Both the position numbers and the translations under genes were made by a program. From Algoriphagus pacificus (GTDB lineage Bacteria > Bacteroidota > Bacteroidia > Cytophagales > Cyclobacteriaceae), in NCBI RefSeq assembly GCF_017254845.1, contig NZ_JAFKCU010000005.1:234953-298952 (forward strand): a stretch of 64,000 nt of DNA. The letters run 5' to 3'. How positions within the stretch are numbered: position 1 is the stretch's first letter; each line of letters opens with the position of its first letter. A model generated the notes under the pieces. The model had not been told where the DNA came from, searched no databases, and saw only the letters and a list, made by a program, of their open reading frames with translations. This document shows positions 39,943 through 62,476 of this stretch, piece by piece.

Positions 39943-39949
39943 GATTGGG

Positions 39950-42011: not shown

Positions 42012-42237
42012 GTTATGATTTGTTTAGGATGTTGTGTCAATCGAATAGCATTTCTAGATTCTGAAGGATATTATCAAAATCCAGAAGCACATTTTATATT
42101 TCTTATATCCAGAAATAACTGGATAATCTAAACCTCCCTATTAGAACTGAAGCTTTTATCATGCAGGGAATTATCAATAAGCCCCGTTCAGTGGCGTGGA
42201 AAACAAAATCCACAGTTTGGAACCAAAACCGAAATCC
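42012..42237. other. traK-traM gap where traL is expected; no gene seen
   Basis: In CTnDOT-like operons a small traL lies between traK and traM. These 226 bases contain no minus-strand ORF with TraL features, only a few AT-rich inverted stretches. traL is missing or has decayed. Confidence 0.5.
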
Positions 42238-42855: not shown

Positions 42856-42866
42856 AGAATTTAAGT

Positions 42867-45133: not shown

Positions 45134-45806
45134 ACATTTTCTTTAGAGCGTTCGGAAACAGATCTGTTCTGGAATGGATCAGCTTGAAGTTCTTCCGATT
45201 GACTATTCTGAGATCCAAAAGATTACTCCTGATACGCCCCTCCGTTTCATGCAAGGCCTTAAGCCTATCAGCATCATTCATCTGCACCGAAAACGAAGTC
45301 ATCACTTCAGTCACATGTTGAAGATTGTCCAGGGATTCCTCCAGCAATTCAAGGTATACTTTCTCAGAAACAGCCTTTTCGGAATCACTCAGAAAAGAGG
45401 AGTTTGATATGACTGTCCAAGCCTGATGGTATTCCTTTACTATTTGCTGTTGGAGCTTTGCTATATCCCTTACCCGCTGAATCTGGGAAATAACAGATTT
45501 GACTTTCCATAATTCCTGAAACAGATGTTCATACTGTTTTCTTTGAAGCTCATCCCAGCTGGCTATTTCCGCAAGCTTCAGTCTATTCAGTTTATTTTCC
45601 AGAAGCTTCTGGGCATTTTGCAACACGATCGTTTCATTCTGTAAGCGCTGGATCTTTAAGTCTATGGCCTGAATTACTTTCTTGACCCCTGCTGCGATAA
45701 CTTCCAGAATCACCGCTATGGGAACAGCTTTTGCCCGGGACAAGGGAACAACCGTCAAGGCCAAAAAAAGAGGCAATACGAGTACAATGATTTTTTTCCT
45801 GATCAT
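45117..45806 (-). CDS. traI: Conjugative transposon protein TraI (VirB5-like)
   Basis: A 229-aa protein with a signal peptide (IVLVLPLFLALTVVPLSRAKA) and long helices (IQRLQNETIVLQNAQKLLEN, LEESLDNLQHVTEVMTSFSV then NDADRLKAL). The position directly behind traG is the traI position in CTnDOT-type operons, and QNETIVLQNAQKLLENKLN is the typical TraI coiled region. It is more distant from the other two paralogues than they are from each other. Confidence 0.75.
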   Translation of the reverse strand: MIRKKIIVLVLPLFLALTVVPLSRAKAVPIAVILEVIAAGVKKVIQAIDLKIQRLQNETIVLQNAQKLLENKLNRLKLAEIASWDELQRKQYEHLFQELWKVKSVISQIQRVRDIAKLQQQIVKEYHQAWTVISNSSFLSDSEKAVSEKVYLELLEESLDNLQHVTEVMTSFSVQMNDADRLKALHETEGRIRSNLLDLRIVNRKNFKLIHSRTDLFPNALKKMYGLEN

Positions 45807-48247: not shown

Positions 48248-48567
48248 TCTTCCCTCCTTGCCAATTGTTTGAACAAATTCCTGTTGGACACTCTGATACC
48301 CCGTGGCACCTGCTTTTCAGCCCATTTCTTCATCAGACCAAACTCCCCATACCTGGCATTTAATCTTGATACCACGACAGCCACCAAAATGGAAAGGAAT
48401 ACCAATAGGAGTAAGCAGGAATTCATCGCCACTCCCATTCCGTAAAGCATCCCAAAAACCAATAAATTGAAAAGCAATCCGGCTATCATATACCCGATGT
48501 ATTGCCCTTTCAACCCCTTAAATTCAATGGGTTTATTAATCCCCTTGTTGATCTTATAACTTTCCAA
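48238..48567 (-). CDS. traF: Conjugative transposon protein TraF (DUF4133)
   Basis: A 109-aa VirB3-like membrane protein: KINKGINKPIEFKGLKGQYI at the start, then two adjacent hydrophobic segments (MIAGLLFNLLVFGMLYGMGV, CLLLLVFLSILVAVVVSRLN), and RYGEFGLMKKWAEKQVPRGI before the end. This is the DUF4133 pattern. Overlaps traG by 10 bases. Confidence 0.93.
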   Translation of the reverse strand: MESYKINKGINKPIEFKGLKGQYIGYMIAGLLFNLLVFGMLYGMGVAMNSCLLLLVFLSILVAVVVSRLNARYGEFGLMKKWAEKQVPRGIRVSNRNLFKQLARREEWN

Positions 48568-48587
48568 TTATTCTTTCTTACTCCGTT

Positions 48588-49040
48588 TTAAAGTGTTTTT
48601 GAAACAGTCTTTTGAGCCTGCCTTCTTTCGCTGTTTTTTTGGATAAATTCCTTGATTCCCGAATCCTCCAGAGCGGTTATTCGTGCCTTATGCCTACTCT
48701 GAAACGGATATATTTTCAGAAAATAATCATCACTTAAACCATACTTTCTAGCTACTCCTACAGGATCAAGCCCCAATTCATCGGGGATTTCCAGTAACAC
48801 CACATTTTTTGGCATCTCCACCAAATTGTGTGTGGCCTGAAAAACCTGCTTTTCTGCCATGTTATAAAAGAACTTATAATGGCGATAGTCTTCTGTAGTA
48901 ACCAGCTGGTCCAACTTCAGACTCAACCAAGGCTGTTCAACATTTCGTAGCTCTCCAAAACGGACATCAATCGTATAGGAATGCCCGGCTAAATCAATTA
49001 TAGGCAGGACACCTTTCTTCCTTAATTCCAGTGATTCCAT
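48588..49040 (-). CDS. Conserved tra-operon protein between traE and traF (function unknown)
   Basis: About 150 aa from the ATG at 49040; the longer frame to 49118 would start inside traE, and the shorter start fits the start of the conserved block (MESLELRKKGVLPIIDLAGH). No signal peptide. Features are YTIDVRFGELRNVEQPWLSL, EDYRHYKFFYNMAEKQVFQA and the acidic/aliphatic NVVLLEIPDELGLDPVGVAR. It reads like a small cytosolic protein kept in many Bacteroidota elements at this place. Function unknown. Confidence 0.7.
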   Translation of the reverse strand: MESLELRKKGVLPIIDLAGHSYTIDVRFGELRNVEQPWLSLKLDQLVTTEDYRHYKFFYNMAEKQVFQATHNLVEMPKNVVLLEIPDELGLDPVGVARKYGLSDDYFLKIYPFQSRHKARITALEDSGIKEFIQKNSERRQAQKTVSKTL

Positions 49041-49051
49041 GGCCGGGGCAA

Positions 49052-49354
49052 TTAAACTCCGAAGAAACTTTGTAGCACTGTGGCCACAACAACCAAAAAA
49101 ACGCAAGATCCAAACCATGCCGCTGCTACTTTCCCGGTATCAGGTTCCCCATTATTCCATTTGTTAAATACTTTTACCGCTCCAACAAGACCGACAATAG
49201 CCCCAATTGCATACATCAGATTGGTTCCTGACTGGAAATAACCTCTTACTTTCTGGGCTGCTTCATTTATTCCGGCATTTCCGTCCTGGGCAAATAAAGT
49301 GTTGGTCAATAAAAACAGGTAGCCCATACAGAGCCAGTGGATGATTCTTTTCAT
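49052..49354 (-). CDS. traE: Conjugative transposon protein TraE (DUF4134)
   Basis: About 100 aa from the ATG at 49354, which gives a signal peptide (WLCMGYLFLLTNTLFAQ) and a DUF4134 body: GNAGINEAAQKVRGYFQSG, LMYAIGAIVGLVGAVKVFNK, WNNGEPDTGKVAAAWFGSC and a final hydrophobic segment. This is the VirB2/pilin-like TraE. The longer frame to 49396 overlaps the next gene and lacks a signal sequence at its start. Confidence 0.93.
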   Translation of the reverse strand: MKRIIHWLCMGYLFLLTNTLFAQDGNAGINEAAQKVRGYFQSGTNLMYAIGAIVGLVGAVKVFNKWNNGEPDTGKVAAAWFGSCVFLVVVATVLQSFFGV

Positions 49355-49367
49355 AGTTTTTAGAAGT

Positions 49368-49793
49368 TTAGTCGGTATTGTTTTTAATTCCTGCAAGGAA
49401 TTCTATGAGGGCATTTTCTGAAATACCCCAAGGCTTTCCTGCCACTGATTCCAAAATATGGGAGACCAAAGCTTTCTGGAAAATAGGTTCAGACCTATAT
49501 TTAAAGCCTGCCAATAGCTTCTCTATTTCAGTCAAAAACTCCTGACTGTTGCTTACTTTGGGGAGGATCTCTAGGTGGATCTGCTCTGCAAAGCCATGTA
49601 TCTCCCCGAAAATAAATCGATACTCTTCGTCTGTGAATTTCGGTTCGTTTGATGAAACATCACTGTTCTTAGAAAATTGCAGATAGCCCCAAACCTCTTT
49701 TCCATAATACCAAAGTATGAAACCCAGGTAATACAAAATCAGGAAGCCCGTTAGTCCTAAAAAGAAATCCAACCAAGAAATATTCTCCAGCAT
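49368..49793 (-). CDS. Single-pass membrane protein upstream of traE
   Basis: A 141-aa protein with one N-terminal membrane segment (FLGLTGFLILYYLGFILWYY) and a soluble helical C-terminus (EIHGFAEQIHLEILPKVS, ESVAGKPWGISENALIEFLA). I do not recognise a family; the position matches the variable small membrane protein before traE in many Bacteroidota elements, sometimes labelled TraD-like. It is the most upstream gene of the tra run and its promoter is probably at 49794-49940. Confidence 0.7.
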   Translation of the reverse strand: MLENISWLDFFLGLTGFLILYYLGFILWYYGKEVWGYLQFSKNSDVSSNEPKFTDEEYRFIFGEIHGFAEQIHLEILPKVSNSQEFLTEIEKLLAGFKYRSEPIFQKALVSHILESVAGKPWGISENALIEFLAGIKNNTD

Positions 49794-49940
49794 AACAATT
49801 CTGTTTTGAGGTTACAAACTTGGGAATGCCCGGAGTCAAAAGGTCACATCAAAACCCGAAGGGGGATTAAAAAAAGATTCAGGAATAGAGAAGATTTAAA
49901 ATTCAAAACGCTGTACACACAGAATTCAGAAGTTGATCTT

Positions 49941-50774
49941 TTACAATTCTCCTTTCCCATCAAAGTCCGTATTATCCATCCATTTTTCCAGTTTGTCTTT
50001 TAGCCTATCCAAAAAGGTGGTTCGGCTGTTTTTGCGGATCCTGATTTCTTGGAAGGTGCGGTAAAACTGGGATAAGTCCCTCTGAAATACTTTCTCTAAA
50101 TGATTGGCAATATCCCGGATAGTCACGTTCCCATGATTTACAGCTCCGGAAGCTTTCAAGGCATAAGCCAGTTCAACTAAAGCAGCTTTAGAAGCAGTCC
50201 ATTTAATCGGACCACTCAATTGCTCGGTATTGCCCTCCAGCTCCGACATCATTTTCTGCAGGAAACATTCCAGTTCCTGCAAAGCCAAAAATCTGGCATT
50301 TACCTTTCCTGCAGGAGTTGCATTCCTATCCCCTAATGGCAGTGTTTTCGTCAACCATATCGGAGAGTTGAGTTTCGACTTTGTAAAAAATACCTCATCC
50401 TGATCTTTTTTATTCAACCTGAAATAGTCATATAGAACATGATTCCTTGTTCGAAACCGATGGATAGTTAAAAACTGTTGGTTCAAGAACTTAATTGCAT
50501 CTTTTCTTCTGGGAGGAAAAAACGACAGTATAAAATAGACCTCGCCAAAATAAATCAGTTCCGCTTCAAACGAAGGTCTAATCTGTTTATAGAAATAAAT
50601 TTCCTTCAAAGGTGAATCAAACTTTTCCGGTGCACTGACTTTTTCACAATACTCATTGGCAATCAAAAAGCTTTGCTCGGCAGCTGCTAACCTATTGGGC
50701 GAAGTTTCGACGAGTTCATTGATTTTCTGTTTCATTTCCAAAAACAAGATGTTAAATGCTTCATTTTCTATCAT
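49941..50774 (-). CDS. rteC: RteC-family mobile element regulator
   Basis: A 277-aa RteC protein: AFNILFLEMKQKINELVETS at the N-terminus, RNHVLYDYFRLNKKDQDEVF in the middle, and the helical DNA-binding-like end KWTASKAALVELAYALKASG, VTIRDIANHLEKVFQRDLSQ and YRTFQEIRIRKNSRTTFLD. In CTnDOT, RteC links regulation to excision. Here rteA/rteB (a histidine kinase and response regulator) are not adjacent, but LytTR/LytS genes lie on the other side of the island. Divergent from the LytTR gene at 51053. Confidence 0.93.
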   Translation of the reverse strand: MIENEAFNILFLEMKQKINELVETSPNRLAAAEQSFLIANEYCEKVSAPEKFDSPLKEIYFYKQIRPSFEAELIYFGEVYFILSFFPPRRKDAIKFLNQQFLTIHRFRTRNHVLYDYFRLNKKDQDEVFFTKSKLNSPIWLTKTLPLGDRNATPAGKVNARFLALQELECFLQKMMSELEGNTEQLSGPIKWTASKAALVELAYALKASGAVNHGNVTIRDIANHLEKVFQRDLSQFYRTFQEIRIRKNSRTTFLDRLKDKLEKWMDNTDFDGKGEL

Positions 50775-51052: not shown

Positions 51053-51859
51053 TTGGGATATAAAAAGCAGCCAATAAAATATCAAAATCAAGGGGTTCGT
51101 ATCGCGCTATGTATCCTAGCTGCAGTACTAGTTGCAATGTTCGGCTCAGGAGCAAAAGTTCTCGATTCCCTCTCCAATCAGGCCTTTTATATCAAGCTGA
51201 TCGCAACCCTGATCATTTCAGGATTCTTTATAGAATTTGTACACACCGTTACGGTCCGACTTGATAAAATTTATGACTGGAAAGAAAAACCCTTAATCAG
51301 ATTTTCACTGCAGTTCATGTTGGGTATCTTTTTACCGGGACTTATCGACTTCCTATTCTTATCTCTGTACAAATGGTATTTCAATTTGACCGTCAGGGCC
51401 GAAGAGAGTGCACAGGTTGGATATTCCGCCATGTTGGTCCCAATCTTTTTGTTCAATTTTTATTATTTGGTTCATTACCACTTGTTAAAAAACAAAGACA
51501 AGCCAGAAAATTCAGGGAACAAAAAAAGAATGTTCATGGTACAGCAAGGAAGCCGGGTCATTCCTGTAAAGCTGGAGGAAATCAGAATGATCTATCATGA
51601 AGACCGGCTGAATTACCTGATAACTGCAGCTGGTAAAAAATATTACCTGAATGAAAGCCTGGAAAAATTGGAGGAACTCCTACCCCAGGAAGATTTTTTC
51701 AGGATTAACAGAAAAATGATCATCCATTATTTAGCCTGTCAACACTTCCAGTCCAATGGCCATGGTAAATTCCAGTTGAAATTAATACCGGAATTTCATG
51801 AGGATGTCTTCGTCACCCAATCCAAATCAAGCCTGTTCAAAGAGTGGATAAAAAGATAA
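51053..51859 (+). CDS. Membrane-anchored LytTR-domain transcriptional regulator
   Basis: A 268-aa protein with a TTG start; the next in-frame ATG (residue 28) would cut into the first membrane segment, so TTG is preferred. Four hydrophobic segments (ALCILAAVLVAMFGSGA, FYIKLIATLIISGFFIEFV, FMLGIFLPGLIDFLFLSLY, AMLVPIFLFNFYYLVHYHL) precede a LytTR DNA-binding domain (MFMVQQGSRVIPVKLEEIRM, DRLNYLITAAGKKYYLNESL, LEELLPQEDFFRINRKMIIH). No receiver domain. Such proteins sense a membrane signal and control neighbouring genes, here probably the LanB-type gene 286 bases downstream. Confidence 0.9.
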   Translation: MGYKKQPIKYQNQGVRIALCILAAVLVAMFGSGAKVLDSLSNQAFYIKLIATLIISGFFIEFVHTVTVRLDKIYDWKEKPLIRFSLQFMLGIFLPGLIDFLFLSLYKWYFNLTVRAEESAQVGYSAMLVPIFLFNFYYLVHYHLLKNKDKPENSGNKKRMFMVQQGSRVIPVKLEEIRMIYHEDRLNYLITAAGKKYYLNESLEKLEELLPQEDFFRINRKMIIHYLACQHFQSNGHGKFQLKLIPEFHEDVFVTQSKSSLFKEWIKR

Positions 51860-52145
51860 ATTCCAGCTTCAACAGCTAATTATACCGAAAACCATTCTTT
51901 ATCTACCCATTATTAACCAGTTAGCAGAAAATTACAGGTATTAAAAGAATGCTGGAAAACCAGGCAATCGTTGACGGGATTCATGAAATCCATCCGAATA
52001 AACCCTTAAAACCTTAAAAAATAAATTGATGTAATAAATTCAAACCCATTCACCTACACTTTATACCTCAAACACCATCGATTATGCCAATCCGGTATTT
52101 CTGCTCCCTACTTCAGGTAGGATTGGGGAAACAAACGGAAAAAAA
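51860..52145. other. Intergenic region before the LanB gene
   Basis: 286 bases. No gene of note: the ATG-initiated frames are at most 32 codons and lack coding features. It probably carries the dehydratase promoter. I see no obvious precursor-peptide gene here. Confidence 0.4.
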
Positions 52146-54716
52146 ATGGCATTTCTTTATCGCATCCCTTTATTTGATGTAGACCCAAATGATCCAATTG
52201 CAATTTCGGATCAAAAAGAAAAAATCATTGAGGCCATCCAGCTAGCTTCACCGGAATTTGCCAAGCTATTAGCCTCCAAAGACTTCATGAATTTGGAGGA
52301 TAGGTTACGAATCAAGCTTAGGAAGTACCTGCTTAGGGCAAACTACAGACCCACCCCATTTGGAAAATTTGCAGGTGTCGGGATAGCTGATTGGGGGAAC
52401 ATGTTTCATTTAGAGCACCCTTTAAAGGCCACTGAACTTAAAAATACCCATTACCAGTCAAGGACATCAGATCCTCTTTCCAACCAATACAATTTAACAG
52501 AAGGCATTTATCTCAAACATGGTTTCTATCATGCCATGGTCTACGATAAGGCCAGTCAAAAATGGAGTCCAAGGAAAATACCCTACAACAATCTTTTAAA
52601 AGTCCTGTTCAAGAAATTCAAAAACAGGTGCTTTGACTTTAATCAGTTTAAGGAATTAACAGAAAAAGAAAATCAGGAAGCGTTCGATGATCTATTAAAA
52701 GAGCTGTGGTTACAATTGATCGATTCAGGAATCTTGGTACATCAAGACATCCAACTGGAGAATCAAAACGGAACCGACATGGTTTTGGAGAACCCTGTTA
52801 CAGTGCCCTGCTCTATAAAACAAACACTCCAGGAATTTATCGAAACAGCCGGAAATCTGTTTTCCGAGGAAGAAACCCGCTACTTACATGAATATAAAAA
52901 ATGGCAAATAGAACATTTTGATGATCGCTGGATAAGCCTGCAACAGCTGATGGAGAATGGAGATTTTTTCTCCGGCCAGTTCCTACTGGAATCCAGTGTC
53001 CCCAATGAAGAGACCATAGATTTCAGCTCAAAGATTTTTGAAAACAACGGTCCGAATTCAATCGATCTTAAAAAAAATGTAGCCCACAAAAATCTGGACA
53101 GGGGTATTTTCGACATCCAACTCCTCTATAGGATGGATGAGCAAGAAAATCCGGTCATTGAAAACATCGTCTGTAATCGACCTTTTGTATACACCGGGAG
53201 ATTTAACAGAGATGCAGCAGTTAAAAACCTGACACTTGAAATCAAAAACAAAATATTTCAAAATGAACATGTCCTGTATGCACATCTCAATTTCATAGAA
53301 AACAAATCAATAGAACATATCTGTGCCGTTGAAAACATTTTCGATTATGAAATAGGCCCTTATCCTCCCAATTCACCAAAAGAACTCGCCTTTAGAGATT
53401 TGTTCCTGGGTATAGAGCAAAACAGGATCATCCTTTTCCATAAACCGAGCAAAAAACAAGTGATCCCGATTGTACTACACCCATTAAACGGAGTACATAT
53501 TACCCATCCCCTATTAAGATTATTATGGGAAGTTGCACATCAAGACCGGTTTCGATTCAAACCCTATCAAAGCAACAACTTGGAAAAGGCAGCTATCACG
53601 CCTGCACTATGCTGGGGAAAATTATGCCTGCAACCCAAAAAATGGAAACTCAAGAAAGACAAGCTGGAAACGCTTGAATCACTCCAAAGAAAACTGCATG
53701 CTTTGGATCTTCCCAAACACATATCAGTCGGAAAAATGGACCAGGAACTATTATTGAGCCTAGAAAACCCTGATGACCTGCAAATCCTAAGAGAGGAACT
53801 GAATAAACATGAAAACTTGGTTTTGAGCGAAGCTCATTGGTTTCATTCCAATGGCCGCAAAAACAAAAAAAGGCCACTTCAGCTGGTTTACCAGCATTCA
53901 AGAACTAAGAACGATCAATTTCCCGCTATCCATTTCAATCCCATTACCAAAGCAATTGCTGACTGTTTATATCTCATCATTACTATCAAAAACTCCGAAG
54001 TCCCAGAAGTCTTGCAACGGCTCTTCTTATTGCTTAAAAAATTGGAGTATTTCAAATCAAACCCCACCTGGTACTTCCTAATCTATGGCAAAAACCAAGG
54101 CACCGAAATCCGATTGAGGATTCTGGATTTCGATTCCAATAAGTCTCCCCTGCTGCTAAATAACTTGGAAGGACTATTCAGAAAAGAAAACTGGGAATGG
54201 AAAACAGCTACCTATTTCCCAGAAACATCGAAATACGGAAAAAGAAGCCTCCCTATTTCCCACAAAATATTTCATTTGGAATCTTCATTCTTAGCCAAAA
54301 AACATGGAAAAGACTTTCCCATCATGCATTCTGACAAATCAAAAATTCTATTGATTGTCAGCTTATGGAAAAAAATCATGATCCAGTCCCCTGAATCCAA
54401 AAGCCTTTTCAAACTGCTCCAAAAAGAAACTAAAATCATGGATACCCAAATTGTGCAGGCTTACAAAAAGGAATTTCAATTTTCACCTGAGGCAATACAA
54501 AGCCGGTTTAACCAGAAAAGTTATTTTTCACTCATCCTTTCACATCCTTACTTCAAAAGAAAGGGAGCCGTTCACTCCCATTTCCTAATGAATCATCTCC
54601 ATATGATGTGTAACCGCTTTTTCCCAACAGCTCCATTGGAACAGGAACGTAGAATCCGTTACCATTTATACCGGGAAATGGGAAAACATCTTTATACCCT
54701 CTCCAATCAGACCTAG
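52146..54716 (+). CDS. LanB-type (lantibiotic) dehydratase
   Basis: An 856-aa protein with the full class I lanthipeptide/thiopeptide dehydratase layout: the N-terminal glutamylation domain (LRANYRPTPFGKFAGVGIAD near residues 73-92, a family signature), YTGRFNRDAA near 352 and PLLRLLWEVAHQD near 455, and the C-terminal elimination (SpaB-C) domain from about 595 (YFLIYGKNQGTEIRLRILDF near 642, NHLHMMCNRFFPT near 820). These enzymes use glutamyl-tRNA to dehydrate Ser/Thr in a ribosomal peptide. No LanC cyclase, peptidase or ABC exporter is adjacent. The precursor could be the 48-codon ORF at 56559, the DUF6520 protein at 58000, or lie outside. Confidence 0.93.
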   Translation: MAFLYRIPLFDVDPNDPIAISDQKEKIIEAIQLASPEFAKLLASKDFMNLEDRLRIKLRKYLLRANYRPTPFGKFAGVGIADWGNMFHLEHPLKATELKNTHYQSRTSDPLSNQYNLTEGIYLKHGFYHAMVYDKASQKWSPRKIPYNNLLKVLFKKFKNRCFDFNQFKELTEKENQEAFDDLLKELWLQLIDSGILVHQDIQLENQNGTDMVLENPVTVPCSIKQTLQEFIETAGNLFSEEETRYLHEYKKWQIEHFDDRWISLQQLMENGDFFSGQFLLESSVPNEETIDFSSKIFENNGPNSIDLKKNVAHKNLDRGIFDIQLLYRMDEQENPVIENIVCNRPFVYTGRFNRDAAVKNLTLEIKNKIFQNEHVLYAHLNFIENKSIEHICAVENIFDYEIGPYPPNSPKELAFRDLFLGIEQNRIILFHKPSKKQVIPIVLHPLNGVHITHPLLRLLWEVAHQDRFRFKPYQSNNLEKAAITPALCWGKLCLQPKKWKLKKDKLETLESLQRKLHALDLPKHISVGKMDQELLLSLENPDDLQILREELNKHENLVLSEAHWFHSNGRKNKKRPLQLVYQHSRTKNDQFPAIHFNPITKAIADCLYLIITIKNSEVPEVLQRLFLLLKKLEYFKSNPTWYFLIYGKNQGTEIRLRILDFDSNKSPLLLNNLEGLFRKENWEWKTATYFPETSKYGKRSLPISHKIFHLESSFLAKKHGKDFPIMHSDKSKILLIVSLWKKIMIQSPESKSLFKLLQKETKIMDTQIVQAYKKEFQFSPEAIQSRFNQKSYFSLILSHPYFKRKGAVHSHFLMNHLHMMCNRFFPTAPLEQERRIRYHLYREMGKHLYTLSNQT

Positions 54717-54733
54717 AAAATTTAAACCCCTCG

Positions 54734-55462
54734 CTACCGGATTAGCTTATTTTCAAAAATCCGCCTGAGTTCCTCCCTGTAAGAAACACTAATAGGAATA
54801 ACATCCCCGGAAACCAATTCACATTGGGAAGCAGATAAAACTTTTACCTTTAAAATATTTACAGCAAAGGATTGGTGTATTCTGACCATGTAGGGTGATT
54901 TAAGCTTTTCCAGACTTTGATAAAAAGGTGAAACCAGGTTAAACTCTCGGTTACCCACCAGTTTTACTTTTGATATTTTCTCCTGTTGTTCCATGTATAG
55001 GATATCTTCAGGTCTTATAGGTCTTCTGTTGTAGCCAAGTTTATCTCCAATCACCACAAAATCCTCCTCTACCACATTCTTAACCCAATAGAGTCTGTCA
55101 ATTTTCTTTTTCGCTTTTTCCAAAGCCCTGCTTAATTCAATTGGATCAGGTGGTTTTCCCAAAAAATCCAAGGCATCGACTTTAAAGCCCTGAATTGCAT
55201 ATTTGGAGTGACCTGAACAAATGATGACAGGTATCCTTGAATCTATCAATCTTCTTGAAATTTCCAGTCCGCCTAAATCAGGCATCAAAATATCTGTTAC
55301 CAGGATATCTGCTTCTCCCCTTCTGATGTATTCAAGACCCTTTACCGGATCTGTTGTTGCAAAGCCTACTATAAATCCCGGCAGCATTGAAATTTCAGCA
55401 CTTAATAAATCCAATACTGATTGTTCATCATCAATTAACCCTATTTTGAAATTCTGTATCAT
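54734..55462 (-). CDS. LytTR response regulator
   Basis: A 242-aa response regulator: receiver with KIGLIDDEQSVLD at the N-terminus, phosphoacceptor Asp in ILVTDILMPDLGG (about residues 54-66), VIICSGHSKYAIQGFKVDAL and LGKPPDPIE; then a LytTR domain (EDILYMEQQEKISKVKLVGN, MVRIHQSFAVNILKVKVLSA). It overlaps the sensor kinase gene by 32 bases, so the two form a pair. Convergent with the LanB gene (17-base gap). Confidence 0.95.
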   Translation of the reverse strand: MIQNFKIGLIDDEQSVLDLLSAEISMLPGFIVGFATTDPVKGLEYIRRGEADILVTDILMPDLGGLEISRRLIDSRIPVIICSGHSKYAIQGFKVDALDFLGKPPDPIELSRALEKAKKKIDRLYWVKNVVEEDFVVIGDKLGYNRRPIRPEDILYMEQQEKISKVKLVGNREFNLVSPFYQSLEKLKSPYMVRIHQSFAVNILKVKVLSASQCELVSGDVIPISVSYREELRRIFENKLIR

Positions 55463-56537
55463 ACAATAAAGACATTTTTAAAGTATAGCATGTATCATCT
55501 GATTCCACTTCGTATCCAAATCGATCTCCAAATTGATAGCTCAGTATTTTGAAGACAGAAGAAGCCCCGAAACCAGATCGTATTTTTTCATTCCGTTTTA
55601 GCACTTTGTTGGAAATAAAGGCTGTAAAACGCCAAAAATCAGAACTGGCATCAAGAGATAAGTCAAACTCAATAATACAGGGGTTCAGTTTGTCCTTGTA
55701 ATCCCCATGGAAGAAAACATTTTCAACCAAAGTCAACAGGCAAAGCTTCGGCATCGGCAATTCACTTGCTATGGGATTCCATTGGACAACATCCGCGATT
55801 GAAATATCAGGGAACCTAATTTTCTGTATCTGAAGGTAATTTCGTACCGCAACCAGTTCATCTTCCAAAGCCTGCGGTTCCTCAAAATCCTGAAAACTAT
55901 ACCGAAGCAACGAAGTAAAATGAGAGAAATCCTTTGCCAAATCCCTTGAAAGCAACGTAATCTTTGAGGCATAAATACTGAGAACATTCATCACGAAATG
56001 AGAGCTCAATTGCATAGAGCGATGTTCAAGTTGCAGCTTTTCATGAGCCATCTCTATCTCAAATTGCTTTTTACGGAGGTCCTGTTTATCAAACTGTAAC
56101 CCGATTGCAGTTGTCAATCCTAAGAAAAAGAATACCCGGAGCAGTTCATTTATGATAAAAACCCTAGGAAATCCATTGAAAAGCGCCACATCATATACGA
56201 AAGCTTTACTTCCTATAAAAACAAGGATCAATAGCAGGAGTATAAGTATGGCCGAACCTCTTTGATTGGGGATTTTGAATTTTGGAAGTATGAATCTGAA
56301 ATAGAGGGCGACCAAAAAATAGCCGGACAAAAAATTGTACAGTGGGGAAAACCAATCACTGATCCGATCAATTATCAATAAGGTAGCTAGAAGATCTACT
56401 AACCAGTAGGCAAAGAAAACAAGAAACAAATAGTACAGAGGATAATCCATGGGATTTGCCATCCAACGAATTATCCCCGAAACCTTGCCGAATCTACCCT
56501 TAATACCAGCCAGGTCCCTATTCCCATTAATTTTCAT
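55431..56537 (-). CDS. LytS-type sensor histidine kinase
   Basis: A 368-aa protein with four to six membrane segments in the first 165 residues (LYYLFLVFFAYWLVDLLATL, GSAILILLLLILVFIGSKAF among them), then the His_kinase region: LQLEHRSMQLSSHFVMNVLS around residues 189-208 (the conserved His before the FVMN in place of the usual NPHFLFN), ELVAVRNYLQIQKIRF, and an HATPase part with LVENVFFHGDYKD and FGASSVFKILSYQFGD. The usual NPHFLFN reads SSHFVMN, keeping His but losing Asn-Pro. It pairs with the LytTR response regulator at 54734. Confidence 0.93.
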   Translation of the reverse strand: MKINGNRDLAGIKGRFGKVSGIIRWMANPMDYPLYYLFLVFFAYWLVDLLATLLIIDRISDWFSPLYNFLSGYFLVALYFRFILPKFKIPNQRGSAILILLLLILVFIGSKAFVYDVALFNGFPRVFIINELLRVFFFLGLTTAIGLQFDKQDLRKKQFEIEMAHEKLQLEHRSMQLSSHFVMNVLSIYASKITLLSRDLAKDFSHFTSLLRYSFQDFEEPQALEDELVAVRNYLQIQKIRFPDISIADVVQWNPIASELPMPKLCLLTLVENVFFHGDYKDKLNPCIIEFDLSLDASSDFWRFTAFISNKVLKRNEKIRSGFGASSVFKILSYQFGDRFGYEVESDDTCYTLKMSLLYDTEFQNRVN

Positions 56538-56558
56538 AACACTAAAAATTCATATATC

Positions 56559-56705
56559 ATGATTAACAAACAATCTATTCTCGCTTGCCAAAAGGCACTT
56601 TTGTCCACTAGAAAAATGGATAATCAATCCAACTCCACCAGTGGTAAATCATTGGTTACCGGAAGTTTTTTCCGAGAGTGCCTGACAACATTTACAAGGG
56701 TCTGA
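56559..56705 (+). CDS. 48-codon Ser/Thr/Cys-rich small ORF, candidate precursor peptide
   Basis: An ATG-to-TGA frame of 48 codons in the divergent space in front of the sensor kinase. It starts MINKQSILACQKALLSTRKM and ends CLTTFTRV. It holds 13 Ser/Thr and two Cys (10 and 41), a dehydratase-friendly makeup, with a Ser/Thr/Asn-rich middle (SNSTSGKSLVTG). A perfect 8-bp hairpin (56705-56725) and a strong terminator (56799-56826) follow on the same strand, which supports a plus-strand transcript. Against it: no double-Gly leader motif, no clear ribosome site, and a promoter would have to lie inside the kinase 5' end. It could instead be a non-coding transcript. Low confidence. Confidence 0.3.
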   Translation: MINKQSILACQKALLSTRKMDNQSNSTSGKSLVTGSFFRECLTTFTRV

Positions 56706-56798
56706 CCTGAAAACCAGTTTCAGGTAAACCGCTCGATTTTGGGCCATGTTATAAATCACAAAGTATAACCTACCAAAATGATCCAGCGGAAATGTAGG

Positions 56799-56826
56799 GG
56801 ATCAGCTAACAACTGATCCTTTTTTT
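56799..56826 (+). terminator. Rho-independent terminator (plus strand)
   Basis: A 7-8 bp stem (56799-56805 with 56813-56819, extended by a G-T pair) with a 7-base loop, followed by T7. No annotated plus-strand gene ends before it except the 48-codon ORF, so it is evidence for a short plus-strand transcript in this gap. Confidence 0.8.
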
Positions 56827-56827
56827 A

Positions 56828-57220
56828 GAACAGCTTAGGAATGCACCCTGCATGTGACATCCAGATGCTCTGATCACTTTTACACATTTTGAAGGTGTTG
56901 GCCTATCGTTTATTCCTGATAATACCACATTCCCTTGCTAAGAAGCGTAGTACCAAAAAACCTCCCGACCAATAAAGAGTAATTCAAATCACAATAGAAC
57001 TAAGATAGTAATTAAATCAGATAATACTATTTATTCTGTTAAAAAACATAGTTTATTCATTCGGAATTATTTAAAACCAAATAAATCCATCTTCATTTCA
57101 TAAACCAAATAACGAATTATACCTATTTACACACTGTATCTACCATACTAGTTGGTCAATGGATGAGGTAGTTAGGAAATTGAATCCATAAATCGGATCA
57201 AAACCAATCAACCAAAAAAA
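56828..57220. other. Intergenic region before the MauE-like gene
   Basis: About 390 bases, AT-rich towards the gene, with no ORF of note and no recognised RNA. The MauE gene start is preceded by an A-run (AACCAAAAAAAATG-like), a common Bacteroidota start context. Confidence 0.4.
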
Positions 57221-57655
57221 ATGAAACTCATTTCTCAAATAGCGGCCATCTCTCTCATCCTGGTGTGGACTTACACCGGATTTGACAAGGTGCTACAATT
57301 TGAAAAAAGCAGGAAGGCATTCCACAATCAGACCTTTCCACCAGAGTTAGCTGAAATATTGGCCTATTTGGTTCCCTTAACAGAGATACTAATTGCAGTA
57401 CTTCTTCTCTTCCATATAACAAGATGGTGGGGATTCTTATCGAGCATACTTGTTCTGGCAGTATTTACAACCTATGTAGGTCTTATCTGGACTGGTGCAT
57501 TTCCCAGAGTTCCCTGCAATTGTGCCGGAATTCTGGAAAGCCTTGGCTGGACTGGGCACTTTATTCTCAACCTTGGATTAATAGGACTGGCAATAATGGG
57601 ACTTAAAACCACCACTAAAAATGTAACTGATCAACACGACCCTAAAAAGGATTAA
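57221..57655 (+). CDS. MauE/DoxX-like redox-associated membrane protein
   Basis: A 144-aa protein with four hydrophobic segments (IAAISLILVWTYTGFDKVL; LVPLTEILIAVLLLFHI; FLSSILVLAVFTTYVGLIW; GHFILNLGLIGLAIMGLK). After the third comes VPCNCAGILESLGW, with a Cys-x-Cys pair at 99 and 101, the MauE hallmark in this family. Family knowledge: MauE-like proteins handle disulfides or thiols in the periplasm, and in Bacteroidota they are often next to DUF6520 genes, as here. This supports redox maturation of a secreted Cys-containing protein. A hairpin 7 bases past the stop probably terminates the transcript. Confidence 0.85.
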   Translation: MKLISQIAAISLILVWTYTGFDKVLQFEKSRKAFHNQTFPPELAEILAYLVPLTEILIAVLLLFHITRWWGFLSSILVLAVFTTYVGLIWTGAFPRVPCNCAGILESLGWTGHFILNLGLIGLAIMGLKTTTKNVTDQHDPKKD

Positions 57656-57661
57656 AATGCA

Positions 57662-57695
57662 AAACCCCTGAGGTTATAAATAACCTCAAAGGTTT
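57662..57695 (+). terminator. Hairpin behind the MauE-like gene
   Basis: A two-part stem: 7 bp perfect (57670-57676 with 57681-57687, TAAA loop) extended by AAACC/GGTTT (57662-57666 with 57691-57695). It lies just past the MauE stop. No long U-run follows, so termination may be partial. Confidence 0.55.
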
Positions 57696-57736
57696 ATGTA
57701 ATCAGCGTTAAGTAAATCATAAAAAGCACCGCTTAG

Positions 57737-57744
57737 TAACTTTG
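57737..57744 (+). promoter_or_regulatory. Candidate Bacteroidota -7 promoter element for the DUF6520 gene
   Basis: TAACTTTG matches the Bacteroidota -7 consensus TAnnTTTG. The expected -33 TTG-type element is not clear (only GTTAAG at a suitable distance). It would start an mRNA with a leader of about 250 bases, including the hairpins at 57853-57904 and 57965-57991. Confidence 0.4.
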
Positions 57745-57852
57745 CTTATAAGTTAACTACTTTTTACATAGGTAACAATATTCAAACAATAAATCAATAG
57801 AAATCATATCGAAAAAATTAAAATAAGACGAAGTAACAGAAAAGAAAAAGAG

Positions 57853-57991
57853 GCTCATTTCTCTTAATAGCTTGGGGTAAGAGACAGGCTGGTACCCGAT
57901 GAGTCTTAATAGGGCGACGCCGAAAACCCTTTTTCAGAGTAGGCAAACAACCAGAAACGGTTTCCCTGTTTTTGATTGGTTAAAAAACAGG
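57853..57991 (+). promoter_or_regulatory. Structured leader RNA upstream of DUF6520
   Basis: An outer 6-bp stem (57853-57858 with 57899-57904, one G-U) encloses a perfect 7-bp hairpin (57860-57866 with 57878-57884). A GC-rich AGGGCGACGCC stretch then leads into CCCTTTTT at about 57928-57935, which could form an attenuator. Just before the gene, a perfect 9-bp hairpin (57965-57973 with 57983-57991) ends 8 bases before the ATG and could control ribosome access. I do not recognise any known riboswitch class. Confidence 0.5.
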
Positions 57992-57999
57992 ACATAAAC

Positions 58000-58287
58000 A
58001 TGAAATATTTAAAAAACATAATCCCAGCACTTGCTTTGGTCCTTGGTGCTTCATTGGCAATGGCCATGAATTTTGCGGAAAATCCAACAGTTCGCTATGC
58101 AGAGGACCCAGATTCAGGAACTGAAATCTGGTACGATCTAACAGGAGTTACCCCGGGAGGATCTACCTATCAATGCAACATGTCCCCCTCCGAAATCTGT
58201 TCACATGAAGAAGATGATTTTTCTTCACCACAAGTAGAAGCCGGAGAATTTGTTAAAAATGGAACCCTGCCGTTGGCAACTCCATAA
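58000..58287 (+). CDS. DUF6520-type small secreted protein
   Basis: A 95-aa protein from the ATG at 58000 (an upstream TTG at 57976 adds 8 unlikely residues). The signal peptide (KNIIPALALVLGASLAMA) is of the DUF6520 type and is followed by a short mature region of about 72 residues with GTEIWYDLTGVTPGGSTYQC and two Cys at 59 and 67 (CNMSPSEIC), the DUF6520 hallmark. The mature part is rich in Ser/Thr, Asp and Gly. Biological function is not known to me. It could be the exported substrate of the local MauE/LanB proteins, which is inference. Confidence 0.85.
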   Translation: MKYLKNIIPALALVLGASLAMAMNFAENPTVRYAEDPDSGTEIWYDLTGVTPGGSTYQCNMSPSEICSHEEDDFSSPQVEAGEFVKNGTLPLATP

Positions 58288-58304
58288 TCAAATTGATTCA
58301 ACTA

Positions 58305-58325
58305 AAGGGGGCAAGAAGCCCCCTT
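58305..58325 (+). terminator. Terminator of the DUF6520 transcript
   Basis: A perfect 8-bp stem (58305-58312 with 58318-58325), 5-base loop, followed by CCTTTTTTCC, 18 bases past the DUF6520 stop. Confidence 0.88.
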
Positions 58326-58722: not shown

Positions 58723-58747
58723 GTAACGTTTTGAGGGTCGTTGTTAC
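58723..58747 (-). repeat. Degenerate attC-like site at the 3' end of the YwqK-like gene
   Basis: GTAACG (58723-58728) and CGTTGTTAC (58739-58747) form a short inverted repeat that overlaps the YwqK-like stop codon (58744-58746). The left half TAACGTTTTGAGG matches TAACGGTTTGAGT of the better site at 60121. Core boxes deviate from the attC consensus, so this is the weaker of two sites. Confidence 0.4.
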
Positions 58748-58977
58748 CTTTTCGTCACTTTATATGGTTTCCCTTTGTCGTCATAGGTTGTCCATTCGCC
58801 AACAGGTTCTCCGTTCTCAAAATGACCTGAACGTTTGATTGTCCCGTCTATTCTATACCATTCCCAATAGCCTTCGGACTTACTTTCTATTATCTTTCCT
58901 TTAGACCAAATTGTCTTACCGTTAGCGTGATATTTTATGGTAACACCGTCAATGATTTCTTGCTTTTTCTCTTTCAT
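58744..58977 (-). CDS. YwqK-family MORN-like small protein
   Basis: A 77-aa protein made of MORN-like turns: VTIKYHANGKTIWSKGKI, YWEWYRIDGTIKRSGHFENG and EPVGEWTTYDDKGKPYKVTK, as in proteins labelled YwqK-family antitoxins. No signal peptide, so probably cytosolic. It overlaps the HTH-pentapeptide gene start region by 4 bases (58974-58977), so the two are coupled and may act as a pair. Confidence 0.75.
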   Translation of the reverse strand: MKEKKQEIIDGVTIKYHANGKTIWSKGKIIESKSEGYWEWYRIDGTIKRSGHFENGEPVGEWTTYDDKGKPYKVTKR

Positions 58978-59903
58978 GTTTTGTCGGTGCTATTTTCTTC
59001 AATAATTGCGATACCTACCATTTTCGCACCGTTACTTTTTAAAAATGCAAAAGTCAGTTTATCTACTTTGCAGTCTATGAACTGGACTTTATTGAATTTT
59101 CGGTTGTGTTTGAAAAATGAATTCAAGATTGTAGCATTTTCAAATTTAACGTCTTTAAAAAAGCAATTTTCAAAAGAACAATCTTCAATAATACCACCAA
59201 AAGTTATTTCCGTGAAGCCAATTTTTTTGAAAGATGTATGTTTCAATACAGCACTTTCGATTGAGTTCTTTTGAAAGATTGAGTTCATAAACTCTGCTCC
59301 TGAAAGATTGGAATTGTCAAAGTTGCAGTTTTTGATTTCACTTTGCTGAATTTCAGCATCAATCAAACTGGATTCTATGAATGTTGATTTTGAAATCACA
59401 GAAGCATAAATCTTTCCATTTCTAATGTCCGAATGAGAAAAGTCACAACCTGCAATTGCATTACCTTTTAGTATCAAACCTGATAGGTCGGACTTAATGA
59501 ATTTGCAGTTTTTGATATTGGATGAACTGAACTTATCTTTTAGGTTTTTTAAACCCGAGAAGTCGGCATCTACCCAATTGCTGTTTGACATATCCCAATT
59601 CCAATCGAATCGTTTTTTACCTTCTTCATTTAGTTGTTCAGTAGGTAATTTGATTGATTGTTTTTCGAAATGCTCGTCATTTGTGGCACTCTTAAAAGTG
59701 TCGGAAAAGTAGTTTAAATCCAAGCCGAAAATCTCTGCAAGACGGTTCAGGGTAGTGAAGTCAGGCATTGATTCGCCACGTTCCCATTTTCCGACTGCTT
59801 GGGGACTAATTGAAATTTTGTTAGCAAGTTCAGCTTGAGAAAGGTTAATTTTCTTTCTTGCGTCGGCAATCTTGTTGCCAATGATTGTTGAATTGAGCAT
59901 CAT
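58974..59903 (-). CDS. XRE HTH regulator fused to pentapeptide-repeat domain
   Basis: A 309-aa protein. N-terminal Xre-type helix-turn-helix: IGNKIADARKKINLSQAELA, KISISPQAVGKWERGESMPD, LNRLAEIFGLDLNYF (residues about 8-70). Then about 200 residues of right-handed pentapeptide-like repeats (DADFSGLKNL, NCDFSHSDIR-like, NSNLSGAEFMNSIF, VLKHTSFKKIGF, DVKFENATIL). The fusion suggests a DNA-binding or nuclease-mimicking sensor or antitoxin. It is the 5' gene of a coupled pair and has unusual base composition, like the other cassette genes. Function unknown; defence or TA role inferred. Confidence 0.8.
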   Translation of the reverse strand: MMLNSTIIGNKIADARKKINLSQAELANKISISPQAVGKWERGESMPDFTTLNRLAEIFGLDLNYFSDTFKSATNDEHFEKQSIKLPTEQLNEEGKKRFDWNWDMSNSNWVDADFSGLKNLKDKFSSSNIKNCKFIKSDLSGLILKGNAIAGCDFSHSDIRNGKIYASVISKSTFIESSLIDAEIQQSEIKNCNFDNSNLSGAEFMNSIFQKNSIESAVLKHTSFKKIGFTEITFGGIIEDCSFENCFFKDVKFENATILNSFFKHNRKFNKVQFIDCKVDKLTFAFLKSNGAKMVGIAIIEENSTDKT

Positions 59904-60120
59904 ATTTTTTAAATTTAAATTGATGCTGTAAAATTATTTTGTTCGAAAGCGATAAGATAAAAAACTCTGCTACTTACAGTTGTAAATTCACTACATTCAG
60001 TTGTTTTCTGGCAACCATTGGTTGTTTTTAAGTCAAGAAATCTGTTTAGTTTTTTTTCCAATCTTTTTTCACTTGTTTGTATGTCTGCTTTTTGGTTGTA
60101 TCGGTCTCTTTTACAATGCC

Positions 60121-60252
60121 AGCTAACGGTTTGAGTATTGCCGAAGGCGGGGAATTTTAGCACAAAAGTTCAATCGAAGAACAAATGCTGAACCTTGCAA
60201 AAATGCCCAATCGAGGCCGTTCAGACCCGGTTTTGGCAATACCTTGTTAGGC
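60121..60252 (-). repeat. attC-like recombination site between gene cassettes
   Basis: 132 bases with attC architecture, read on the minus strand: GCCTAAC (60252-60246, fits the R'' box RYYYAAC), inner box GGTATTGCC region (60243-60235), a long folding spacer, the inner complement GGCAATAC (60142-60135), then GTTAGCT (60127-60121), which misses the R' consensus GTTRRRY at one base. The arms pair TAAC/GTTA and GTATTGCC/GGCAATAC with unequal spacers of 7 and 3 bases, and further pairing CGGG/CCCG extends the hairpin. The AAA gene stop lies inside the R'' box. The remaining gap 59904-60120 shows no gene. Confidence 0.5.
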
Positions 60253-62436
60253 GATTGTGCATTCTAGTTCTTTTATGTCTTTATACAATGTTAGTAAATG
60301 GTCTTCTGATAAATCCATTAAAGGTTCATACATAAATGAGTTTAGATGTAAGTTTTCTGCTGTCATCAAATTCACTCTGTCGAAAATTTCAATCTCTTTT
60401 TTGTTGTTAGGGAACTCTGTTTTGTATTGTCCAATTATTTTTCCCGTTTCTTTACTCCAAATGTTAGTATGGAAATTTACATCTGTAACTTTATTGATAA
60501 TATATTCTTCGGCTTTAAACCTTATTGCAATTGATAGGCAAAGTTTTGATTTTAAGTCCAATACTGGTTCGATTGCTTTGTTTGCTTCAATTTCCTCTGC
60601 AATAGAAATAGCCAAATCATAAACCTTTTTTGTTGTGTCTGGCAAAGTTGCAGTAGTTCCAAAAATGTTATTGAAAATTTTCAAAATTTCCCCTGTTGTA
60701 TGCTCTTTGGTTTCTTTTATGTTTTCGGCTGTATTTGTTGGCTTAATGTGTAATAAGGAAGTTAAAATAAGATAGTTTGTATTTTTTGTACCTATCGTAT
60801 ATTCAATTAGATTTCTTACAAATGGAATACACGAAATAAAGGACTTTTCACAAGTAGGAAAGTTCTTTCTCAAAAGTGGAAATACGTCTTGCTTTTCGCC
60901 AGGAACTAAATTCACTTCACTTGCTGATTTAACGGCTTTTAAATTGCCTTCCCAATTGTTGACACTTTCCAATCTTTTTTTAATCGTTTTATAGAAGTCA
61001 AAATTATGTGTAAGAATAATCATTTTAAATCTATGGTCGTCTGCAATATCCTTTAAATATTCAATAATTGCGTACTTGTTTTTATAGTCGAATGAGTCGG
61101 CAATGTCATCGATTATAAATAATTGGTCAGTTGCTATCTTTTTCCTTGTTTCAATTTGAAAAATAATATTCAAAAGATAGAAAACTCTTTGTTCTCCTGT
61201 GCTTAAACTTTTATTGATTTCTGCACCGCCCAAATCTTTTGTTGAAGCACCATCTTCATAAGTGAAAATCAAAGAAGCAGGTTCGTTTTTTAAGATAACG
61301 TCTTCTTGGTTTTTTATCTTTATCTTAAATGGAATTGTAAATCTATTTTTGAATATGGCGAGGACTTTAAGCCATTCAGCTTGTTCTTTTTTTGCTTCAA
61401 TGGTAATTTCGTTTCGTCTTGTTTTGGTTTCGGTATATAGTTTTGCAAAAACATCAAATTCACTTTTGTGATTTGCTATGTAGTTAAGAATTAATTTCTT
61501 TTTGAAATTTTCTAAGTCAATAAATTCTTTGATTATATCTTGATTGTTTTCAACGTAACTTCTAAAATTACGAAGCTCATTGTTTGCGTTTAAAGCTTTG
61601 TCAATTTCATTGAATTTTGAAGTTAATTCTGGGTCATTTAAAACTTTTTCTTTCTCCTCCTTTATTACATTTTCTAATTCGTCAATATTTCCGATTTCAA
61701 CATCTTTAATTTTTACTTTATGTTCAGCTTTAAAAAAACCATTGTCTTTTAATGACTTTGTAACATTGTCTGCATTGTTGTGATTAAATTCTCCTTTCTT
61801 GAAAAATGTAGTGTTTTCGTTTACTAACTTTTCGTAAACAGCAATGTATTCTTTGATTTTTGTGTTGAAAGATTTCTCTTTTAAAAATTTTGATACCTTA
61901 TCATTGAATATTTCATTGAAAACTATGTTTGTCAAGATTGGTGTTTCAATGGCGTTAATTTCCGTTGTCCGACTCTCAATAAAACTATAAATATCTGTCT
62001 TAAAGGTATCAGATATGGTTTGTTCAATTACGTTTTCTTTAATTCCTAAATAAGGTTGGATTGTTTTTATAAATTCCTTTTTTGTGTCATTTAGTTTTAT
62101 GTTTATTGCATCGTATTCAGTTTTAAGAGTTTCGTTAGCCAAAATGGTTGACGCTTCTTTAAAATCAGCATCTTGCATTCTGTTAATCACAAAAATTTCT
62201 TCTTTTAAAATATCTCTATTGTCAACAAGAGCCGACCTATGATTTACTCTTTCACTAAAAATTCTGTCTTCTGAAACTTTGTCAAGCGAAATGTCTTCAA
62301 GTGTCTTAGCAAAAGAAGATTTCATTGCTCCATTTGGTGCGTAGATAATTTGCACTCTTGATTTTGTAAAATCGAATGTATGTTGCAGTTTTTTAATTCC
62401 ATAACAATTTTCAAAGTGTATTTTTAGTTCGTTCAT
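60247..62436 (-). CDS. AAA/ABC-type ATPase, probable defence protein
   Basis: About 729 aa from the ATG at 62436 (a longer frame starts at 62460). It is an SMC/RloC-like ATPase: N-terminal P-loop YAPNGAMKSSFAKT (about residues 28-41) where the usual Gly before Lys is Met; central coiled region about 100-400; ABC signature LSTGEQRVFYLLNIIF (about 420-435); Walker B QLFIIDDIADSFD; H-loop IILTHNFDFYKT. The C-terminus (about 520-729, including HLNSFMYEPLMDLSEDHLLTL) is family-specific and may be an effector, such as an RNA-cutting domain, though I cannot see catalytic residues. It is a single-gene cassette between attC-like ends, typical of antiphage cargo. Confidence 0.82.
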   Translation of the reverse strand: MNELKIHFENCYGIKKLQHTFDFTKSRVQIIYAPNGAMKSSFAKTLEDISLDKVSEDRIFSERVNHRSALVDNRDILKEEIFVINRMQDADFKEASTILANETLKTEYDAINIKLNDTKKEFIKTIQPYLGIKENVIEQTISDTFKTDIYSFIESRTTEINAIETPILTNIVFNEIFNDKVSKFLKEKSFNTKIKEYIAVYEKLVNENTTFFKKGEFNHNNADNVTKSLKDNGFFKAEHKVKIKDVEIGNIDELENVIKEEKEKVLNDPELTSKFNEIDKALNANNELRNFRSYVENNQDIIKEFIDLENFKKKLILNYIANHKSEFDVFAKLYTETKTRRNEITIEAKKEQAEWLKVLAIFKNRFTIPFKIKIKNQEDVILKNEPASLIFTYEDGASTKDLGGAEINKSLSTGEQRVFYLLNIIFQIETRKKIATDQLFIIDDIADSFDYKNKYAIIEYLKDIADDHRFKMIILTHNFDFYKTIKKRLESVNNWEGNLKAVKSASEVNLVPGEKQDVFPLLRKNFPTCEKSFISCIPFVRNLIEYTIGTKNTNYLILTSLLHIKPTNTAENIKETKEHTTGEILKIFNNIFGTTATLPDTTKKVYDLAISIAEEIEANKAIEPVLDLKSKLCLSIAIRFKAEEYIINKVTDVNFHTNIWSKETGKIIGQYKTEFPNNKKEIEIFDRVNLMTAENLHLNSFMYEPLMDLSEDHLLTLYKDIKELECTIA

Positions 62437-62476
62437 TTTTGTTCTGTTGTTTGTTGGCACGGTCGGTCATAGCATA

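Follow-up and report, generated by a model that had tools for sequence, protein, structure and literature searches.

Nisin, a LanB-modified peptide, controls its own genes through the two-component system NisRK, a known case of autoinduction by a cluster's own product; its regulator NisR is not of the LytTR type. In the Agr and Sil systems of Gram-positive bacteria, a small peptide gene is accompanied by those of a membrane-bound kinase and a regulator of the LytTR type. According to the accessible text of PMC2766830, LytTR sites are built of 9-bp repeats spaced by 12 bp (i.e., a period of 21 bp), and direct repeats of this period precede the regulated promoters of Sil; direct repeats are also described for AgrA (excerpt of PMC4227749), and some Agr peptides have six-membered rings (excerpts of PMC10301443). 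A locus of similar layout, with repeats of the same period and a peptide for which a six-membered ring is proposed, was found in a 64,000-nucleotide stretch of Algoriphagus pacificus (positions 234953–298952 of contig NZ_JAFKCU010000005.1; hereafter, the window). This locus pairs a LanB-type dehydratase with a tiny gene whose peptide seems to be LanB-modified and connected, via a dedicated sensor and regulator, to a redox/uptake cluster, in what looks like an undescribed signalling system. We regard it as fairly probable that the locus is a self-contained, quorum-sensing-like autoinduction switch with a signal shaped by LanB instead of an AgrB-type protease. The broader proposal is tentative, with the balance slightly against it: that Algoriphagus and its relatives use a LanC-less subfamily of LanB to make a lanthionine-ringed pheromone, with several parallel channels per genome, that switches on MauE/DUF6520/SusCD redox-uptake modules and represents a quorum-sensing class of Gram-negative Bacteroidota.

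The dehydratase gene (lanB; 52146–54716, forward strand) encodes 856 amino acids, and Lant_dehydr_N (PF04738: 130.6 bits, 7.4e-38) and Lant_dehydr_C (PF14028: 59.7 bits, 6.7e-16) were both found over their cut-offs in this one protein, showing that it contains the glutamylation as well as the elimination domain. The family profile matches NisB, and the closest named relative of the window protein (98%) is from Algoriphagus aestuarii. On the reverse strand, convergent with lanB, are genes for a LytTR response regulator (54734–55462; PF00072 and PF04397) and a LytS-type sensor kinase (55431–56537; PF06580, 1.4e-11) with several transmembrane stretches in its hydropathy profile. The 48-codon peptide gene (56559–56705, forward strand), divergent from the kinase gene, is proposed as LanB substrate and signal from its recurrence, selection, and co-evolution; its Ser36 and Cys41 codons occupy 56664–56666 and 56679–56681, and a terminator-like hairpin with a T-run was identified by eye on the same strand 3' of the gene (about 56799–56826). 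Two further forward-strand genes encode a MauE/DoxX-like membrane redox protein with a C-x-C pair, the proposed regulated output (57221–57655; PF07291, 111.2 bits vs. a cut-off of 27, 5.6e-32), and a DUF6520 protein with a signal-like N-terminus and two invariant Cys in an 18-sequence alignment (58000–58287; PF20130, 29.7 bits vs. a cut-off of 25.4, 8.3e-7), which likely starts at ATG 58000 and not at TTG 57976. The SusD gene of the DUF6520 module (62799–63992, reverse strand; PF14322, 3.3e-28; PF07980, 6e-9) follows behind three intervening genes, and its product is 59% identical to SusD of the sister locus L013. A profile search of the window proteins returned all gene positions and families given in a preliminary description of this DNA; the contents listed there stand, but the extent was too short, because the module runs past DUF6520 to SusD.

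This gene arrangement is more than chance because its order recurs both within the source genome and in other genomes. The source genome contains four complete LanB genes and one fragment, and all four complete loci share a single order: lanB, convergent regulator and kinase genes, a 45–56-codon open reading frame (ORF) divergent from the kinase gene, mauE, and a DUF6520-like gene, which in the three sister loci is followed by convergent SusD and SusC genes. Four PF20130 matches exist in this genome, three of them 3.3–4.7 kb behind a LanB gene; the DUF6520-like gene of the sister locus at C48 was recognised by similarity and is not among them. A homologue of the 48-residue peptide is encoded in every complete locus, with the C-termini SFFRECLTTFTRV, SFFRECLTTITTI, SIFRECHTTITTG, and SFFRECLPPFTRAR, which would give the genome four complete channels, each with its own core peptide. 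Scanning genome contigs yielded 20 loci (19 Algoriphagus, one Marivirga), and 24 of the 73 genomes of the genus carry this LanB type. In samples of the larger groups, which leave room for a wider occurrence, the LanB profile matched 19/295 genomes at family level, 36/390 at order level, and 3/395 at class level. The family and order matches split into proteins scoring at least 484 bits (this LanB type) and at most 179 bits (ordinary LanBs, most about 1000 amino acids long), and this LanB type accounts for 18/295, 19/390, and 3/395 genomes, respectively, all in the family group of Algoriphagus. The family group used in the search holds both Algoriphagus and Marivirga, which NCBI places in Cyclobacteriaceae and Marivirgaceae, respectively.

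For comparison, further loci were taken (41 from the genus, 19 DUF6520 loci without LanB, and 16 from family and order), and 20 repeat loci were dropped when an identical 500-base stretch was common to both partners (L044–L062, 19 repeats of L025–L043, and L104, a repeat of L042). The stretch of L049 is the same as that of L031 but belongs to a different genome, and L104 is nonetheless among the 56 loci of the co-evolution analysis. Three LanB fragment rows and the ordinary LanBs (L116–L119) are outside the counts. A PF20130 match lies 3.3–5.1 kb downstream of lanB on the same strand in 31 of 47 genus LanB rows (48 in total, with one of two split-gene rows omitted). MauE is encoded in 48, DUF6520 in 43, and SusD in 43 (by similarity) of the 53 loci with a peptide gene, and several of the others end with the contig. 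The conserved co-occurrence of LanB with MauE and DUF6520 expected in the preliminary description therefore extends beyond this genome.

Several results indicate that the 48-codon ORF is a genuine gene. Of 57 non-duplicate loci with this LanB type, 53 carry it in divergent orientation to the LytS kinase gene, and the locus L112, one of the four others, is cut off by the contig end 0.2 kb after LanB. A Ser-x4-Cys pattern occurs near the C-terminus of all 53 peptides, and this Ser(-5) and Cys are the pair that never varies, although the Ser invariance is partly by construction because the alignment was built on the S-x4-C pattern. Ten of these peptides, missed by an earlier regular expression, were first found by position (L029, L033, L035, L040, L042, L043, L083, L084, L113, and L114). 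Glu directly precedes the Cys in 47/53 peptides, and Thr occupies the second and third place after it in 45/53 and 46/53. A Thr-Thr pair after the Cys as an essential feature was rejected, given PP, PY, PF, PS, PT, EE, or DE in L015, L082–L084, L111, and L113–L115 (PP, PY, or PF in L015 and L082–L084; EEKGLY/DEKGLY in L113/L114). The core is far more conserved than the leader when judged by eye. Purifying selection is apparent from 15 hand-picked close pairs (pS 0.50, pN 0.16), including L080–L081 with a value of 0.98, probably because that pair was compared without gaps, and codon variability is highest at third positions (0.61 vs. 0.34 and 0.23). Both measures make it very likely that the ORF is translated and under selection. 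A family-derived core expression, run against 4906 ORFs of the 53 loci, matched the 53 peptides only. Recurrence, alignment, selection, and this specificity led us to reject a chance ORF.

The same genes co-evolve. Distance correlations, calculated from as many as 56 loci, were 0.91 for LanB and the response regulator, 0.93 for LanB and the kinase, 0.85 for LanB and the peptide, and 0.82 for kinase and peptide, each reached by none of 500 permutations; the regulator and kinase correlate at 0.91. As in peptide pheromone systems, the genes of a membrane kinase and its LytTR regulator thus adjoin the peptide gene and co-evolve with it; as in canonical class I lanthipeptide clusters, a small putative precursor with a Cys and Ser/Thr core is co-conserved with LanB. 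The 48-residue peptide, one of two substrates put forward in the preliminary description, holds up as a candidate on these grounds.

LytTR-type repeats link the peptide gene to its putative outputs. In the window clade, TTATACC-type direct repeats 21 bp apart occupy the kinase/peptide gap and the region preceding lanB, and some loci have them ahead of mauE as well, matching the period of published LytTR sites (accessible text of PMC2766830). Three sites for the response regulator are predicted in the window, all on the forward strand: upstream of lanB (51879–51907; ATTATACC-N13-TATCTACC), between the kinase and peptide genes, where it overlaps the kinase gene at its annotated 5' end (56470–56498; ATTATCCC-N13-AATCTACC), and upstream of mauE (57116–57144; ATTATACC-N13-TATCTACC). 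We scored the best direct repeat common to two regions of each locus at 29 spacings (12–40), leaving out L070 (lanB inverted). The average score for lanB and kinase/peptide was 19.0 at 21 bp, compared to 11.0–14.0 at the 28 other spacings (51 loci), and that for mauE and kinase/peptide was 20.3, compared to 11.9–14.3 (47 loci). Control regions reach 14.7–15.3 at 21 bp, so part of the two-way score is due to the kinase/peptide repeat itself. A three-way score (kinase/peptide, lanB, and mauE) was 37.2 at 21 bp vs. 22.0–25.1 at eight other spacings, with values of at least 40 in 18/47 loci at 21 bp and in at most three loci at any other spacing. When regions were paired with loci of distant LanBs, the scores fell to 15.6 and 16.6. 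The window repeat words occur three times in the 5.28-Mb source genome, all in the window locus, a count that speaks for the privacy of the circuit and not for significance, because the search pattern was built from those three sites. Since the repeat words vary from clade to clade, training a single matrix on all loci did not help. In a one-region test, the mauE promoters of LanB loci scored 6.76 at 21 bp, and those of 17 LanB-less loci showed no 21-bp peak (5.26 at 21, 5.66 at 20). We rejected a role of the 21-bp repeats in regulating DUF6520, whose upstream region scores 14.7 vs. control values of 15.0 and 15.3. The tight signal control suggested earlier from the density of regulators is supported.

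From these results, we infer the modification, ring, export, and sensing of the peptide as follows. The conserved gene would be expressed in the cell as a 48-residue precursor, which we divide into an N-terminal leader of ~33 residues and a C-terminal core (..TGSFFRECLTTFTRV). LanB would glutamylate Ser36 and eliminate the glutamate, perhaps acting on Thr residues as well, and the resulting dehydroalanine would be captured by Cys41 without a local LanC. This Ser36–Cys41 ring is proposed because the S-x4-C pair is invariant and the LanB domains are intact, and since only Ser and Cys are invariant, the product is probably a single lanthionine ring spanning six residues. The mature peptide would exit by a route encoded outside the locus and be sensed by the adjoining LytS kinase, a step suggested by the divergent, neighbouring, and co-evolving peptide and kinase genes. 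The LytTR regulator would then bind the shared 21-bp-spaced repeats and stimulate the kinase/peptide, lanB, and mauE promoters in a positive loop, which may also switch on the MauE(-DUF6520-SusCD) module.

Some observations weigh against this circuit. No exporter, leader protease, or LanC was found among the seven proteins scanned in 51053–58287, in agreement with the preliminary description, whose term 'secretion' is unsupported because the locus encodes no exporter. The three-way repeat score is below 30, near background, in 17/47 loci, including the sister locus L012, and is weak (32.0) in the sister locus L013. Pairing with near relatives gives 21.8 and 21.7, as high as within a locus (19.0 and 20.3), implying that the within-locus agreement is partly clade-wide. 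Among the loci counted above, the peptide gene of L038 is frame-broken, in L074 the contig ends after LanB and a transposase-like ORF, without a regulator or kinase match, and L106 has LanB alone, with no regulator, kinase, or peptide found in 19 kb. The catalytic residues also give a mixed picture. The NisB residue numbers agree with the counts in the NisB alignment. Six of the nine residues listed as essential in NisB/MadB (MadB numbering; accessible part of PMC12241602) fall at invariant positions of the LanB family (R64, R68, T70, R352, R658, and H819), but NisB R826 corresponds to K696 in this LanB, and NisB D121 and D299 are not conserved. Dehydration activity is therefore likely, not certain. 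In the source genome, the only one searched for LanC, there are two LANC_like matches (one below its cut-off), both away from the four complete LanB genes. These matches (at C49 and C1:1116206) belong to separate loci that carry GG-leader-like small proteins and, by eye, look to have a peptidase-type ABC exporter.

Two other readings start from the same peptide. It could be a small lantibiotic-like bacteriocin, with production merely induced by the two-component system as for nisin, and with MauE, DUF6520, and SusCD as bystanders. LanB is a classical lantibiotic enzyme, an S-x4-C ring with a Thr tail resembles a lantibiotic ring, and nisin provides a precedent for autoinduction, but the scanned genes include no exporter, immunity, or LanC gene, the regulator repeats precede mauE too, and the core looks far better conserved than the leader; we therefore consider a bacteriocin unlikely. 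Alternatively, the LanB-modified peptide may stay inside the cell or membrane, e.g., as a direct inhibitor or activator of the kinase in a cell-autonomous circuit. The missing export and protease genes, a 48-residue peptide without an evident signal sequence, and a kinase without an evident large extracytoplasmic domain (from hydropathy only) are consistent with this idea, but described LytTR peptide systems use external peptides (accessible text of PMC2766830), and we judge it quite improbable.

The co-evolution of the remaining genes with LanB is weak: correlations were 0.37 for MauE (reached by 0/500 permutations), 0.18 for DUF6520 (0/500), and 0.09 for SusD (11/500), whereas DUF6520 and SusD correlate at 0.59. 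The locus is composed of module A (LanB, response regulator, kinase, and peptide) and module B (DUF6520, SusD, and SusC), with MauE between them. Each occurs without the other: the Marivirga locus L042 has the four genes of module A without a MauE or DUF6520 match, and 20 loci have module B without LanB and without the family peptide, the peptide expression giving two matches in 1361 ORFs of these loci, both located in other parts of the stretch and dissimilar to the family. One of the latter type, L014 (C47), is in the source genome itself, where MauE, DUF6520, SusD, and SusC are present and LanB and the small ORF are absent. One of the two substrates named for the preliminary description's modification-and-secretion system was rejected: DUF6520 as LanB substrate, in spite of its downstream position, its two invariant Cys, and a weak LanB correlation that no permutation reached, is very improbable because it tracks SusD far better than LanB (the peptide, with 0.85, is the shorter protein, so length does not explain the gap), occurs in loci without LanB, and has an apparent Sec signal sequence at its N-terminus in the alignment. 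Its co-variation with SusD is what would be expected if DUF6520 partnered SusCD or served as its cargo. Its signal-like N-terminus (LPALALVLGATLAMAMNF, 58000–58060) is more conserved than the remainder, which is unusual (18-sequence alignment). A hairpin seen by eye in the window (57965–57991, forward strand) just 5' of the DUF6520 start is shared with sister loci as an element with compensatory stem changes. This hairpin, 6–21 nt 5' of the start (stem CCTGTTTTT/AAAAACAGG, loop GATNNGTTA), occurs in roughly half of 41 loci and varies in its stem (CCCG/CGGG, CTC/GAG, GGGA/TCCC, and GCCC/GGGC); in another clade, a GGGAG/CTCCC stem takes its place. The hairpin is likely a translation or stability element; no Rfam match exceeded the gathering score within the window.

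Other genes surround these modules. An orphan membrane LytTR regulator with a TTG start (51053–51859, forward strand; PF04397, 2.2e-14) is accessory, being present in 10/25 loci of one locus set and also in the LanB-less locus L088. The three genes between DUF6520 and SusD (58744–62460) encode a MORN-like protein (below cut-off), an HTH-pentapeptide protein, and an ATPase that matches the PADLOC candidate defence system PDC-S46 at 3e-239. A small protein (63–111 amino acids; e.g., L013:12135–12347) with the pattern I-Y-A-Q-D-I-M-x-F-T-G-R-S, helix-turn-helix-like and probably DNA-binding, is encoded at most 7.5 kb from the peptide gene in 44/56 loci, mostly in the peptide–mauE interval; in L027 and L032 its sole location is upstream of lanB. 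The protein is absent from the window locus and had no Pfam match (two tested). Conjugative-transposon genes (36902–50774; TraG, TraJ, TraM, DUF4138, RadC, DUF932, and RteC) directly adjoin the LanB cassette. RteC is also found beside other LanB loci (e.g., L013, L036, and L037) and LanB-less MauE loci (L088–L090 and L100–L102), and DUF5675/DUF6266-type genes take its place beside many other LanB loci (L012:3442–6290, L015:6599–7741, and others).

Nothing resembling the LanB locus was found in the literature searched, among the matches listed, as the preliminary description had supposed. This search, outside which most subscription papers fall, returned no paper joining lantibiotic dehydratase, LytTR, and Bacteroidetes, none among the matches listed on a peptide pheromone with LytTR in Bacteroidetes, and none naming DUF6520; the match for Algoriphagus with lanthipeptide concerns Pedobacter in its accessible part. 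E. coli has been used to produce class I lanthipeptides from two further members of Bacteroidota (excerpts of PMC9993889), and the accessible portions of a survey of ribosomally synthesized and post-translationally modified peptides in Bacteroidales and of a Bacteroidetes natural-product survey contain no LanB (PMC10352776) and nothing on these loci (PMC9248904), respectively. A large lanthipeptide mining study used LanC as its anchor and for this reason would have missed LanC-less loci (accessible text of PMC7268733), a blind spot that the present locus exposes. If the proposed circuit is true, it would provide a new peptide signalling class for Bacteroidota and a role of LanB outside antibiotics, and DUF6520 as a SusCD partner would be a first handle on this family. 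Because the circuit predicts an exact product (a single Ser–Cys ring spanning six residues) and three defined binding sites, it is testable in any culturable Algoriphagus.

Compared to the class I lanthipeptide clusters of Bacteroidota (pinensin etc.), the locus shares a LanB with both domains and a precursor with Ser/Thr and Cys, but it has no LanC, exporter, or protease, its precursor has a single invariant Ser and Cys, and its LanB of about 860 amino acids is far from ordinary LanBs. The nisin system resembles it in joining a LanB-modified peptide to two-component self-regulation, whereas here exporter, immunity, and LanC genes are absent and the predicted output includes mauE. Unlike Agr and Sil, the locus has a LanB-type enzyme in place of an AgrB protease or transporter, the ring would be a lanthionine and not a thiolactone, the kinase is of the LytS PF06580 type, and the host is a Gram-negative member of Bacteroidota. 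The nearest idea found in print, in the accessible text of PMC10301443, is CA_C0082 of Clostridium acetobutylicum, a LanM-like effector tied to an Agr peptide quorum-sensing locus. Based on the same text, CA_C0082 is devoid of catalytic residues, functions as an output, and is dispensable for making the signal, whereas the LanB described here retains most of the residues listed for NisB/MadB and shows co-evolution with its peptide.

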